Source: Candidatus Flavonifractor merdigallinarum (GTDB lineage: Bacteria > Bacillota > Clostridia > Oscillospirales > Oscillospiraceae). Taken from it: a DNA stretch of 32,184 bases. The stretch is taken from the NCBI GenBank assembly GCA_019115265.1, contig DXDX01000039.1, positions 1 through 32,184 of the forward strand, given 5' to 3'. A model generated the notes under the pieces. That model was not told where the DNA came from and did not search any database. It saw nothing but the letters and a program-made list of their open reading frames with translations. Positions 1-32,101 of this stretch are shown piece after piece. The position numbers and the translations under genes are program-made. Each line of letters begins with the position of its first letter. Position 1 is the first letter of the stretch.

Positions 1-290
1 CGCAACCGGGCTAAAGTTCCGCTGCGGTGCCATTTGAACGGAACTTCCCGCCTATGAGGAAAGCGTTGTACTGCCATGCAAGACAAGTAACCGCAGAAAT
101 TGTAAGTCACCGCCAAAAAATGGGGCGGCCCCATAAAAAGGCCGCCCTTTTGGAGGGGAGTGGAGAGGGGAACGAGAAGTTCCCCTCTCCGCCTTTTCTT
201 TCCCCGGTTTCTTTTCGCGAAAAGAAATCGGGCGCCACCCGCGCAGGGTACCCGAGCCTGGCTGGCGGCCCGTGCGGCGAGCACACCGAA
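1..290 (+). repeat. Composite hairpin repeat element, copy 1 (left part cut off by window start)
   Basis: Near-identical to 9645-9930 and to the reverse complement of 24905-25200: shared core 'cctatgaggaaagcgttgtactgccatgcaagaca', hairpins GGGCGGCC/GGCCGCCC (123-147), GGAGAGGGGAAC/GTTCCCCTCTCC (162-190), CCCGGTTTCTTTTCGCGAAAAGAAATCGGG (203-232). Confidence 0.9.
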
Positions 291-8919: not shown

Positions 8920-9486
8920 ATGAGTTTGTGGGAACTGTTTCTTATCGCGGTGGGGCTGTCCATGGACGCCTTTGCCGTGTCCATCTGCAAGGGGCTCTCG
9001 GTGGGGCGGGTACGCCCCGGCCACGCCCTCACCGCCGGGGTGTGGTTCGGCGGGTTTCAGGCCCTGATGCCCCTGCTGGGCTGGGCGCTGGGCACCCGCT
9101 TCCAGGCCCTCATCACCAATGTGGACCACTGGATTGCCTTCCTGCTGCTGGGTTTTATCGGGGGCAGCATGGTGTGGGAGTCCTTCCGGGGCGAGGAAGA
9201 GGAAGTGGATGCCTCCTTCTCCCCCCGCACTATGTTCCCGCTGGCGGTGGCCACCAGCATTGACGCCCTGGCGGTGGGGGTGACCTTCGCGTTTCTCCAG
9301 GTGGACATTGTCCCCGCGGTCAGCTTTATTGGGGTGACGACTCTGGTCTGCTCGGCGGTGGGTGTCTATTTGGGCGGCGTTGTGGGAGAGCGCTTCCAGG
9401 CCCGGGCCAAGCTCTTTGGCGGAGTGGTGCTCATTGTCATGGGCTGTAAAATCCTTCTGGAGCATTTGGGTATTTTGAAGCTCTGA
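8920..9486 (+). CDS. mntP: Manganese efflux pump MntP family
   Basis: LIAVGLSMDAFAVSICKGLSVG ... ATSIDALAVGVTFAFL duplicated DUF204-type motif. Confidence 0.93.
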   Translation: MSLWELFLIAVGLSMDAFAVSICKGLSVGRVRPGHALTAGVWFGGFQALMPLLGWALGTRFQALITNVDHWIAFLLLGFIGGSMVWESFRGEEEEVDASFSPRTMFPLAVATSIDALAVGVTFAFLQVDIVPAVSFIGVTTLVCSAVGVYLGGVVGERFQARAKLFGGVVLIVMGCKILLEHLGILKL

Positions 9487-9507: not shown

Positions 9508-9951
9508 CCCGTCCAAGGCGGGAAGGTTTTGCGCTCGCCGCGCGGGCCGCTTACTCAGCGGGAGCACCGCTTTCTTTGCCAAAGAAAGCGGTGGGAAAGA
9601 AAGCGCAGAGGGGGCGCTGCCCCCTCTGCACTCCCCCCAATGCGCAACCGGGCTAGATTTCTACTGCGGAGAAATTGCGCCGGTGCGGTGCCATTTGCAC
9701 CAGGCTTACCGCCTATGAGGGGAGCGTTGTACTGCCATGCAAGACAGGTAGCCGCAAAGACTGGAGGTCCGCACCCACAAAATGGGGCGGCCCCCGAAAA
9801 AGGCCGCCCTTTTGGAGGGGAGTGGAGAGGGGAACGAGAAGTTCCCCTCTCCGCCTTTTCTTTCCCCGGTTTCTTTTCCGCGAAAAGAAATCGGGTCCCC
9901 GCTGGATAAGCGGCCCGCGCGGCGAGCGCAACCCCTCCCGGCCTAGCCGGG
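9508..9951 (+). repeat. Composite hairpin repeat element, copy 2 (most complete)
   Basis: Perfect 25-bp inverted repeats TTGCGCTCGCCGCGCGGGCCGCTTA at 9529-9553 and 9907-9931; outer hairpins CCCGTC/GGCGGG (9508-9522) and CCCGGC/GCCGGG (9937-9951); internal hairpins 9565-9593, 9605-9629, 9785-9809, 9824-9852, 9865-9895. Confidence 0.95.
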
Positions 9952-9979
9952 GCAGAACGCCCACGCAAAAACAGTCAGA

Positions 9980-11452
9980 TTACTGATGGTCCGCGCCGGT
10001 GAGGTAGTTGTAGAACGCCAGATTCACATAGAGGTCCACCGGCTCCACTTTCAAGCTGGGCGCCTTCTCCTTGACCACCTTGGCGATGGCGTCCCCGCCG
10101 TCCACGGTGGAGAAGGGGTGGATGGTGTAGGCGCCGTTGCGCACCACATTGTCCACGATGTGCACAAAGTTCTCCTTGTCACTCATGGGCACGGTGGAGG
10201 TGTACAGGGGCTGCCACCACGCGCCCTCCAGCAGAGGCACAGTGGGGTTGCCGTTCTCGTCGGTGTTGCTGTCCCACTTCTTGGCATACTGGCCCACAAT
10301 GGCGTCGAACGCCTCCTTGTCCGCCACCGTGTCAAACTCCAGCTTCATGTCATACTCCGTGGCGTAGCACAGCCAGCGGCCGCCGTCAATGGGCTTGAGC
10401 TCATAGGTGGGGGTGGACTCAATCTGGGTGGGGTCGCCCCACTCCACCAGGTACTCATAGATGGAGGTCTTGGGCTCCAGCTGCACCTTGGCGTCCAGCC
10501 CCTCGCTGTTCAGAAGGGCGATGAGCTGCACCGCGTGGGTGATGTCGCTGTGGCCATATTGCAGGGTATAGCTGGGCAGGAAGCGAGCGTCATACCCATC
10601 ATACTTCAGGTTGTAGCCAGTGGAGGCCCCGGCAATCACCAGCTCCGCGCCCAAATCGGACAGGGTGGCGTCATCAAAGAGGCCGAAGGAGGCCCAGGCG
10701 GACTGGAGCTTCTGATAGATGTCGCTGTCACTGGCGTTGCCCAGGTAGTTGCGGCCCTGGCCGGAGATTTCCACCGCATTCATGAGGATGGTGGTGGCGG
10801 TATCGCCGTTCACCGCGCCGCCAAAGTCCCAGGTGGAGGAGGCCAAAGAGCTGTCCAGCGCAGCAGCCACATAGCCGGCGTAGGCGTCGCTCACACCGGT
10901 GACGCCGTAGGCGGCCAGACGCTCGGCGGCCTTGCCGGTATCCGGCTCGGCGGTGTAGGTGAGGGCCAGCTCCTCCAGCCCAGCGGCGGACACTGCACCG
11001 GCCACCGCCTCGGCGAGGGTAAAGGTGCCGCTGCCATTGGTCTTGTTGGTGCCGCCGATTTTCTCCAGAGCGGCGTTGAAGCTCTCCCGGGAGAGGGTTC
11101 CCGTCAGGGGGGAGATGCCGAAGTAGGTCTGGAGATACTCCCCATCCTTGGAGTCGGCAGTGTTCTCACTGAGGTGGACGGAAGAGGTGGAGCCGTCCCA
11201 GGCCACGTTCACCCCCAGCGCCTCTCCCATGGCGCGCACCGGCAGATAGGTGGTGCCCTCGCTGACGAATACGCCGGTGGGGTTCCCCTTGGAGTCCACC
11301 GGGGTGATGGACTGGTCGGCGACATAGAGGTCGATGTCGGTGTTCACCGTAAAGGTCTTTTGCACCAGAGCAGCTCCGGCGGGGAGGGCCAGCCCAGCCG
11401 CCAGAGAGGCAGCCAGCAGGCCGCCCATGAGAGGTTTCGACATGTGTTTCAT
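9980..11452 (-). CDS. Secreted copper-amine-oxidase-N-like 'stalk' domain protein with uncharacterised C-terminus
   Basis: Signal peptide; YVADQSITPVDSKGNPTGVFVSEGTTYLPVRAMGEALGVNVAWDGSTSSVHL typical stalk domain. Confidence 0.85.
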   Translation of the reverse strand: MKHMSKPLMGGLLAASLAAGLALPAGAALVQKTFTVNTDIDLYVADQSITPVDSKGNPTGVFVSEGTTYLPVRAMGEALGVNVAWDGSTSSVHLSENTADSKDGEYLQTYFGISPLTGTLSRESFNAALEKIGGTNKTNGSGTFTLAEAVAGAVSAAGLEELALTYTAEPDTGKAAERLAAYGVTGVSDAYAGYVAAALDSSLASSTWDFGGAVNGDTATTILMNAVEISGQGRNYLGNASDSDIYQKLQSAWASFGLFDDATLSDLGAELVIAGASTGYNLKYDGYDARFLPSYTLQYGHSDITHAVQLIALLNSEGLDAKVQLEPKTSIYEYLVEWGDPTQIESTPTYELKPIDGGRWLCYATEYDMKLEFDTVADKEAFDAIVGQYAKKWDSNTDENGNPTVPLLEGAWWQPLYTSTVPMSDKENFVHIVDNVVRNGAYTIHPFSTVDGGDAIAKVVKEKAPSLKVEPVDLYVNLAFYNYLTGADHQ

Positions 11453-24887: not shown

Positions 24888-25307
24888 CTCCGCCCAAGGC
24901 GGGGAAGTTTTTGCGCTCGCCGCGCGGGCGTCCTACGCGGACAGCGCCCGATTTCTTTTCGCGGAAAAGAAATCGGGGAAAGAAAAGGCGGAGAGGGGAA
25001 CTTCTCGTTCCCCTCTCCACTCCCCTCCAAAAGGGCGGCCTTTTAGGGGGCCGCCCCATTGAGGGACAGTCACTGACAGTCTTTGCGGTCACCTGTCTTA
25101 CGCCGCAGTACAACACTTCCCTCATAGGTAGAACGCTCCCGCCCAAATGGCACCAAACTGGTGCAATCCCTCCGCAGTAGAACTTTAGCCCGGTTGCGCA
25201 TTTGGGGGAGTGTGCAGAGGGGGCAGCCCTCTCTGCGCTTTCTTTCCCACCGCCGAGTAGGCGGCCCGTCCGGCGAGGACAAAGCCTCCCGCAACTGAGT
25301 CAGTCGC
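24888..25307 (-). repeat. Composite hairpin repeat element, copy 3 (opposite orientation)
   Basis: Reverse-complement homology to copy 2 over arms and core; hairpins 24947-24977, 24990-25018, 25033-25056, 25214-25236; inverted ends around 24905-24930 and 25261-25285. Confidence 0.93.
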
Positions 25308-26567: not shown

Positions 26568-27446
26568 GTGCACCGCCCGCCCCGTCGCCGGCGGCCCTCT
26601 GTGGGCCGGAGCGCCGCGTGGCTTTTGCTGGTCTCTCTGGTTGTAGCTGCTCTGTTTCTGCTGTTTGACCAGAGTACACGCACTTCCATACGTCCGATTC
26701 CCAACCGGCATGTCAGCTCTGCGGAACACACCTTTGTGGTTCCCACCCCAACGCCGACTCCAACACCTACCCCTACCCCCACGGCGACCCCCACGCCAAC
26801 CCCAACGCCGACGCCCACTCCCACCCCCTACGACTACTCCCAGCCCGTCCCCTCCGCTCCGGCGGTGGATGACGACTGGTTCCGGGACGCGGCTTTTCTG
26901 GGGGACTCCCGCACGGAGGGCCTGCTCTACTATACCTCCATCCGCCCCGGCGGCTCCTTTGCCTACCGGGGGCTCAACGCCCAGAGCATCCGCACCAAGG
27001 CCTTCGCGAAAACGTCCAGCGGCAAACAGACCGCGCTGGAGGCCCTGAAAGCGGGGACCTTCACCAAGGTCTATGTGATGCTGGGCATCAATGAGCTGGG
27101 ATGGTGGAGCGAAAAACAGTTTTATACCCAGTACGGGGAGCTGGTGGATCTCATCCGCGCCGCCCAGCCCTCCGCTCAGATTTACCTCCAGACCCTGATT
27201 CCGGTCACGGCGGCCAAATCCGCCGAGGGGGTGTACACCAATCTCCGCCTCCAGGCGTTTAACCAAATTATTCGCACCCTGGCCCAGGAAAAACAGGTCT
27301 ATCTCCTGGATGTGTGGTCCGCATTTGCCAATGCCCAGGGCGCGCTCCCCGCGGAACAGAGCAGCGACGGCATCCACCTCTACCCCCGGGACTACGACCA
27401 GTGGCTGGTCTATCTCAAATCCCACACCGTGGCCCCCGCGTCCTGA
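26568..27446 (+). CDS. Membrane-anchored SGNH/GDSL-type hydrolase with Thr-Pro linker
   Basis: N-terminal TM, (TP)n linker, AAFLGDSRTEG, MLGINELG, DGIHLYPRDY; GTG start at 26568 after AAAGGAGG (ATG alternative 26541). Confidence 0.85.
   Translation: MHRPPRRRRPSVGRSAAWLLLVSLVVAALFLLFDQSTRTSIRPIPNRHVSSAEHTFVVPTPTPTPTPTPTPTATPTPTPTPTPTPTPYDYSQPVPSAPAVDDDWFRDAAFLGDSRTEGLLYYTSIRPGGSFAYRGLNAQSIRTKAFAKTSSGKQTALEALKAGTFTKVYVMLGINELGWWSEKQFYTQYGELVDLIRAAQPSAQIYLQTLIPVTAAKSAEGVYTNLRLQAFNQIIRTLAQEKQVYLLDVWSAFANAQGALPAEQSSDGIHLYPRDYDQWLVYLKSHTVAPAS
26743..26830 (+). repeat. Low-complexity ACN-CCN hexamer tract encoding the PTPTPTPT linker
   Basis: Direct reading: cccaccccaacgccgactccaacacctacccc...acgcccactcccaccccc. 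Confidence 0.9.
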
Positions 27447-28913: not shown

Positions 28914-28990
28914 GGCGGTATAGCTCAGTTGGCTAGAGCATGCGGTTCATACCCGCAGTGTCCCCGGTTCAAATCCAGGTACCGCTACCA
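28914..28990 (+). tRNA. tRNA-Met (CAT)
   Basis: Cloverleaf with anticodon loop TTCATAC, encoded CCA; not initiator type (anticodon stem lacks GGG/CCC). Confidence 0.9.
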
Positions 28991-29016
28991 AAAACGGCAT
29001 CTGCCGTTTCTCGCTT

Positions 29017-29091
29017 GGCGCGTTGGTCAAGCGGTTAAGACACCGCCCTTTCACGGCGGTAACACGGGTTCGATTCCCGTACGCGTCACCA
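29017..29091 (+). tRNA. tRNA-Glu (TTC)
   Basis: Cloverleaf with anticodon loop CTTTCAC, T-arm ACGGGTTCGATTCCCGT, encoded CCA. Confidence 0.95.
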
Positions 29092-29120
29092 CGACGGGAG
29101 AGGAATCGCTCCCGCCAATT

Positions 29121-29197
29121 GGAGGCTTAGCTCAGCTGGTTAGAGCGCCTGCTTCACACGCAGGAGGTCGATGGTTCGAGTCCATTAGTCTCCACCA
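29121..29197 (+). tRNA. tRNA-Val (CAC)
   Basis: Cloverleaf with anticodon loop TTCACAC, encoded CCA. Confidence 0.94.
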
Positions 29198-31132: not shown

Positions 31133-32101
31133 ATGATTTATTCTGAGGATTGCAGCCGGTGCCGCTGCTCCTGTCCATGCCGCTGCTGCCCCGGCGCCAC
31201 CGGGCCGACGGGACCCACCGGACCCCAAGGACCCAGCGGCCCCACCGGTGCAACCGGGGCCACAGGCGCAACCGGTCCCGCCGGACCCATAGGGCCGACC
31301 GGCCCAACAGGCCCCGCCGGAAGCGGCAGCAACACCGGCCCTACCGGGCCAACGGGGCCAACCGGTCCCCAGGGTGTCCCCGGACCAACTGGTCCAACCG
31401 GTCCTCAAGGTGTCACCGGGCCAACTGGCCCAACCGGTCCCCAAGGCGTTGCCGGACCGACTGGCCCAACCGGTCCCCAGGGTGTCGCCGGACCAACCGG
31501 CCCAACCGGTCCCCAGGGTGTCGCCGGCCCAACCGGCCCAACCGGCCCCCAGGGCATCACCGGACCAACAGGCCCAACCGGTCCCCAGGGCATCACCGGA
31601 CCGACTGGACCAACCGGCCCCCAGGGACCCACAGGGCCAACGGGGCCTCAAGGCGTCACGGGTTCAACCGGACCGACAGGCCCAACGGGGGCAGCGCCGG
31701 AGGATGTGTTTGCCTCTTATTTTAACTTTCAGTATCCCATGGTCCGAAATACCCTGTTGGATTTGCTGCCCGATATCACAGACCCTACGGGGCACATCAC
31801 CCAAGCCGATACCAAACGTATTGCCTTGCAGCCGGGTTATTATCTGGTGTCTTATAAGGTATCGGCCATTTTCCCGGCCCCCAACTATTTGCAGGTGACG
31901 CCGTCGTATAACGGCACCCCCCGGCTGGAATATGGCGTCTATTTTGCCACCAACGCCGCCGGGTCCAGCGCCTGCGGCTCGGGCATTTTTATTATCCGTG
32001 CGCCAGCGCCCACGGTGCTGACGTTCAGCTATAGCGGCTCCGCCGATGCCCGGGACGGGGAAATCAATGTGACGATTCTCAAGTTGAATCGTCCCCTGTA
32101 A
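31133..32101 (+). CDS. BclA-like collagen-type GXY repeat protein with Cys-rich N-terminus
   Basis: [33 protein letters not shown]..., long [10 protein letters not shown] repeats, C-terminal jelly-roll-like domain. Confidence 0.92.
31340..31690 (+). repeat. Tandem ~36-bp repeats encoding [11 protein letters not shown](A/T)/I(T)
   Basis: Successive units ggcccaaccggtccccagggtgtcgccggaccaacc with few substitutions. Confidence 0.92.

Follow-up and report, generated by a model that had tools for sequence, protein, structure and literature searches.

REPINs with RAYT (PMC3116915, PMC2817692) have inverted structured ends around a spacer, lie outside genes and form an intragenomic population of related copies, all of which also holds for the element described here. 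Enterobacterial BIMEs share with it the extragenic location, the high-copy palindromic units in alternating orientation, the mosaic build and the tie to transcription ends; an evolution of REPs by gene conversion has been proposed (Higgins 1988, as cited in PMC3116915). Prokaryotic MITEs (PMC10969869) are likewise 50-500 bp long, with inverted ends, no ORF and many intergenic copies, and intrinsic terminators, which stand behind genes, combine a G-C hairpin with a U-rich tract immediately after it, a motif that recurs in the present element. Background on REP sequences was drawn from PMC2817692, PMC3116915, PMC8049555 and PMC10969869.

The DNA analysed here (the window, 32,184 nucleotides) is an entire contig, C120, of a fragmented Flavonifractor-type MAG (the host genome, G000). 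A preliminary description had singled out an intergenic element of about 444 bp in it. Our reading of the observed anatomy, copy number, covariation, placement at 3' ends, terminator-like motifs, mosaicism and conserved sites with replaced contents is that this is a BIME-like interspersed mosaic element, which lies behind gene 3' ends, would act as a bidirectional terminator or insulator and would be homogenised by recombination between its copies. We give this reading a probability of about one half.

Anatomy of the element

Copy 2 of the window lies in a convergent spacer between an mntP-like gene (manganese efflux, PF02659) that ends at 9486 and a minus-strand gene that ends at 9980 and encodes a copper amine oxidase N-terminal domain. 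Its features and those of the other two copies are as follows, with the strand where one is assigned.

9508 to 9952, plus strand: copy 2, whole element from h0 to h0, with the L-type arm on the left and the R-type arm on the right
9508 to 9522: outer hairpin h0 of the left arm, CCCGTC-CAA-GGCGGG, followed inward by AAGGTTTT
9531 to 9543: h1 of the left arm, GCGC-TCGCC-GCGC, with a constant loop and a stem that covaries among copies
9547 to 9564: h2 of the left arm, CCGCT-TA-CTC-AGCGG-GAG, a stem plus pseudoknot in which the loop CTC pairs with GAG 3' of the stem
9565 to 9593: H3 of the left arm, a long hairpin with CTTTCTTT/AAAGAAAG
9605 to 9629, minus strand: H4 of the left arm, followed by GCTTTCTTT on the minus strand, hence outward-facing and terminator-like
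9630 to 9784, plus strand: core, which varies by species and subfamily and has no ORF conserved among copies
9785 to 9809: hairpin H5, GGGCGGCC...GGCCGCCC, bordering the core on its right (H3 of the preliminary description)
9824 to 9852, plus strand: H4 of the right arm, followed by GCCTTTTCTTT on the plus strand, hence outward-facing and terminator-like
9865 to 9895: H3 of the right arm
9896 to 9913: h2 with pseudoknot of the right arm, inverted
9917 to 9929: h1 of the right arm, inverted
9937 to 9952: outer hairpin h0 of the right arm, CCCGGC-CTA-GCCGGG
1 to 287, plus strand: copy 1, consisting of a partial core, H5 and the right arm, truncated by the contig start
24888 to 25300, minus strand: copy 3, inverted, with the R-type arm from 24913 and H5 reversed

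The end hairpins, the inverted h1, the arm hairpins and the GGGCGGCC/GGCCGCCC hairpin that had been claimed for copy 2 are all present within 9508-9952, and folding of this copy is much stronger than that of shuffled sequences on both strands (z about -14). Both further copies were recovered as well, one at 1-~287, cut by the contig, the other at 24888-25300, inverted and with one arm lacking H3. In this copy 3, whose neighbours are a YmdB-like gene and asnA, the L-type arm is the one that lacks H3, and it terminates in h1 at 25268-25280. The count of three copies in 32 kb is correct for the window but not as a total, the genome holding about 110; and the perfect 25-bp inverted repeats exist in copy 2 but are atypical, most copies having unlike h1 stems in their two arms. 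Elsewhere in the window, a 36-nt unit is repeated in about 10 imperfect tandem copies (31182-31703), short C-rich repeats of the CCNACNCC type with a spacing of 12-18 nt (26742-26852) probably belong to a low-complexity coding stretch, and three tRNA genes form a run at 28914-29194.

A protein-coding core was rejected: no frame is open throughout the copies of the host genome, and lengths vary in all three phases. The element is composite and non-coding, with no frame kept across copies, as the preliminary description had held in finding no convincing ORF. Elements of Flavonifractor sp. An92 (G008), for example locus L031, are nearly free of stops in all six frames. Stop-type triplets number 13 per kb in the elements of this genome against 38 in shuffled sequences, and 59 against 73 in ordinary spacers; the effect is smaller in G000. 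We read the near absence of stops in G008 as a matter of composition, since the copies are related and all frames are alike.

The element also proved as unfamiliar as had been supposed. An Rfam search of the window returned three tRNAs only, and at a relaxed threshold sub-threshold matches only; no copy was found in phage GenBank records, and no description of the element in the literature searched. The Flavonifractor arm pattern was not found in IMG/VR, where a related arm pattern occurs in two contigs. Further copies exist outside the window, their ends do not fall at random points and no Rfam family corresponds to them; in these respects the outcomes that the preliminary description had named as refuting it did not arise.

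Copy number and distribution

Searched by BLAST in the genome that it comes from, the element gave at least 40 scored copies with 84-93% identity, several of which run into contig ends. Arm motifs were found 222 times in the host genome, against 6 times with a reversed control, which amounts to about 110 copies or about 2% of the assembly. Full copies of about 75% identity are present in G008, and the arms are common to six other members of the genus. A covariance model built from the R-type arm found matches in 59 of 301 genomes of the host family, spread over 33 of 106 genera, and in 21 of 295 genomes across the host order, other families included; a 300-genome sample of the phylum yielded only two matches, both in the host family and none outside the order. 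The complete two-arm plan, in very different sequence, occurs in other genera and other families (loci L181, L187 and others). Isolated weak matches of the arm model in other families are regarded as unproven. At locus L166 (G001) the core is an array of ~54-nt tandem repeats (GCGCTTTATGGAAGCTTTCTTTGCC...).

Covariation and probable independent folding of the arms

From outside to inside, the general arm consists of a variable hairpin h0, h1, h2 with an H-type pseudoknot, H3 and H4, and two such arms, mirrored, flank the core. h1 follows the plan NNNN-TCGCC-NNNN and h2 the plan NNNNN-TR-NNN-NNNNN-NNN, while H3 carries CTTTCTTT/AAAGAAAG. The h0 position is taken by a hairpin in 67-78% of arms; shuffled sequences have one there in 45-48%. 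The pseudoknot of h2 pairs three loop bases with three bases behind the stem and occurs in the types CGC/GCG, CTC/GAG, CCC/GGG, TCC/GGA and TTC/GAA. Its three nucleotides pair fully in 163 of 171 arms, where 2000 shuffles average 77 and reach 97 at most; the h1 stem does so in 163 arms as well (74 on average in shuffles) and the h2 stem in 119 (56 on average). These shuffles overstate significance because the arm sequences are related to one another. In a set of 15 diverse arms, 96.7% of the cells of the three small helices are paired, compared with 36-48% when slid. The recurrence of five types of pseudoknot and four main types of h1 in varying combinations would be difficult to account for if the strand did not fold.

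The L- and R-type arms are homologous yet systematically unlike in H3 and H4. The same h1 variant is present in both arms less often than by chance (3 of 32 copies where 9.6 are expected, and 2 of 25 where 6.6 are expected), which argues against a cruciform formed by pairing of arm with arm and for independent folding of each arm. A long-range stem joining both arms, suggested by the minimum-energy fold, is not supported on the same ground, the arms differing in h1 variant more often than chance. Note that one arm in the host genome (L020, contig C146) carries two tandem h2 pseudoknot modules, so that single modules can be duplicated.

Placement behind genes and terminator-like signals

Among 68 spacers that hold full copies in G000 and G008, classified from gene calls based on G000 codon usage, 41 are convergent, 27 tandem and none divergent, compared with 149 divergent spacers among 791 others. 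All 68 copies lie behind gene 3' ends, and the median distance from the nearest stop codon to h1 is 33-38 nt. An origin of h0 from a host terminator was rejected: h0 is also found on the 5' side of downstream genes and is thus part of the element.

In G000 and G008, 98-100% of arms have at least 6 T in the 12 nt that adjoin H4 on its outward side, and 0% have this on the inward side. These genomes therefore have a U tract directly after the hairpin, as in an intrinsic terminator; the tract is poor in G004 (mean 4.3 T), and the outward-terminator pattern may fail in some species. A simple scan of the region found 5 terminator-like sites by consensus matches, against 1.6 in shuffles. A-C mismatches in the inward-reading strand, which equal G-U pairs outward, outnumber the reverse in h2 and H3, at 2-3 positions only. 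Covariation, the outward terminator-like signals and, weakly, the G-U bias suggest a role at the RNA level, and the outward T tracts and the G-U bias would fit an RNA that is read outward through each arm, i.e. a bidirectional terminator. The view that the element is more than a terminator stands, the terminator-like hairpins being present but only part of a larger element. Some copies follow a native terminator (C30:8574 of G008 in the stretch read), and termination by the element may be redundant there.

Mosaicism and probable exchange between copies

G000 and G008 hold an element at the same place in 17 of 40 informative flanks, far above the expectation from copy density. Copy identity is 0.88 within species and 0.80 between species, and orthologous pairs (n=5) are no closer than random pairs (0.779 versus 0.794); judged by arm against flank orientation, three of the five are inverted. 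Linkage among variable sites is at background beyond 15-30 nt for copies within G000 and within G008, and the closest pair of copies shares 95% identity. In another genus, six species carry three different cores between flanks of 83-93% identity at a site that lies 4-5 kb from dnaA. The arm of G164 equals that of G085 over 92 nt at the dnaA-proximal site, the remainder being about 75% identical. In G085 this site (L307) holds two elements back to back, the second partial and inverted; in other species of the same genus (loci L311, L313, L319 and L331) the dnaA-proximal spacer has, by eye, an apparent NUDIX-type gene and no element.

Mosaicism and change of contents in place would most simply be accounted for by exchange between copies via their arms. 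Ectopic gene conversion is a known process that fits such an exchange, and we infer it as the mechanism; breakage of hairpins might act as the trigger. The low linkage could partly come from recurrent mutation, and shared sites with altered contents could also come from repeated insertion into hot spots.

The latter is what a MITE-like non-autonomous transposon would do if it were moved in trans: shared sites would be hot spots behind genes, and turnover would be loss followed by reinsertion. Empty orthologous sites, for which the preliminary description had advised a search, do occur (C30:8574 of G008 compared with G006, and the dnaA-proximal site in G264 and G872), so copies have been gained or lost, in keeping with such an element; flanks at the empty sites are too diverged for a target-site duplication to be read. 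Terminal inverted arms, many copies, the lack of a conserved ORF and the random orientation at shared sites (3/5 inverted) also agree with it, as do copies behind a phage terminase gene. Two-armed elements follow the terminase large-subunit gene in the IMG/VR phage contigs L200 (about 1160-1720), L201 and L204, and contigs L207 and L208 share this gene order but lack the element; at this terminase site two contigs have the element, and a related phage has another subfamily there. We nevertheless consider a transposon possible but on balance unlikely. The arms avoid identity, unlike transposase recognition repeats, no pair of copies exceeds 95% identity, which speaks against a recent burst, and the decay of linkage requires exchange anyway. 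Moreover, no element with an ORF between its arms occurs in the parts of G008 (1.08 Mb, about 30% of the genome) and G000 (0.42 Mb, about 16%) that were read, and a Y1 transposase was found in neither genome.

Clustering near the origin

All elements of contig C1 of G006 (400 kb read) lie between 31 kb to the left and 59 kb to the right of dnaA/rpmH, where the GC skew changes sign. Within 60 kb of dnaA are 7 of 8 copies in G006 and 6 of 12 in G005, the enrichment being weaker in G008, G085, G257 and G224 and absent in G123; these statistics treat copies as independent and use rounded genome sizes, and members of one genus are not independent. A plain terminator would give no reason to expect clustering at oriC. 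A possible reason is that more copies of origin DNA would offer more partners for exchange. A bolder and, in our view, speculative proposal, which we think unlikely to be right, takes the elements as order-wide self-homogenising cassettes concentrated around the origin, the folded single-stranded arms of which, with their pseudoknot, would be recognised by a dedicated recombination system that swaps cores in place among fixed sites of the chromosome.

The clustering could also point to a site that acts as DNA and organises the origin region, e.g. by binding gyrase, SMC or some other protein of the nucleoid, a function that has been put forward for BIMEs. We judge this quite improbable: constant loops, covarying stems and the pseudoknot indicate a fold of the single strand, copies are unclustered in G123 and elsewhere are also distant from oriC, and the genomes of one genus that show the clustering are not independent witnesses. 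A trans-acting structured RNA made from the core, with outward terminators setting its limits on either strand, would suit the outward-facing hairpins at both sides of the core and the one core stretch conserved within a species, but is highly improbable given that a sigma-70-like promoter was sought and not found, that cores are replaced at one site among close species and that about 110 copies per genome would be odd for a regulatory RNA.

Proposed mechanism and significance

In the reading that we prefer, the bidirectional terminator homogenised by exchange, each arm is a series of modules that fold locally: h0, h1, the h2 pseudoknot, H3 and H4. On the strand that runs from the core outward, H4 precedes the U-rich tract, so that each arm resembles an outward-facing intrinsic terminator. 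A transcript arriving from a neighbouring gene would pass through the near arm and the core and presumably stop in the far arm, before the next gene; stopping transcripts from both sides, the element would serve as bidirectional terminator and insulator. Occupied sites persist across species, while arms and cores would be swapped between copies by ectopic gene conversion via the shared arms, and this swapping would homogenise the set within a species.

The element takes up about 2% of the assembly, and one in three of the genera sampled from this major gut family has relatives of it, without a description in Rfam or the literature searched. If the terminator reading is true, the annotation of 3' ends and operon borders in these bacteria is affected. 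The element also breaks short-read assemblies, many contigs of the host MAG ending within a copy. Since close species differ in contents at the same site, the mechanism of exchange is open to experiment.

Comparison with known systems

PF01797 (Y1_Tnp) is absent from G000 (82% complete) and G008 (99% complete), the genomes with the most copies, and present in 5 of 10 members of the genus. As RAYT is absent from G000, the element is not a REPIN, and a REPIN/RAYT system was rejected. The ends of the arms carry no GTAG tag and start h0-TTTT-NNNN-TCGCC. Compared with REPINs, the present element is several times longer, lacks GTAG and, in G000 and G008, PF01797, and changes its contents in place. 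With MITEs it has in common inverted ends, a length under about 600 bp and the lack of a transposase ORF; it differs in that its ends vary in sequence yet keep their fold, and in that no parent transposon was present in the 1.5 Mb read.

Among the classes proposed in the preliminary description, the REP/BIME-like composite comes nearest to the way the element behaves, but the copies themselves are not REPs, having neither RAYT nor a GTAG tag. Like a BIME, the element is an extragenic mosaic of palindromic modules, as seen from the decay of linkage and the exchange of modules at one site. Unlike a BIME, it contains no REP-type unit and no RAYT, keeps a fixed two-arm plan with unlike L and R arms, has a pseudoknot and a species-specific core, and measures 350-500 bp. 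It offers a clear natural example of how dispersed non-coding repeats evolve in concert without belonging to the REP/RAYT system. An intrinsic terminator corresponds to one of its parts; the ~440-bp repeat has two of these facing outward, together with a pseudoknot, a core and homogenisation across the genome.
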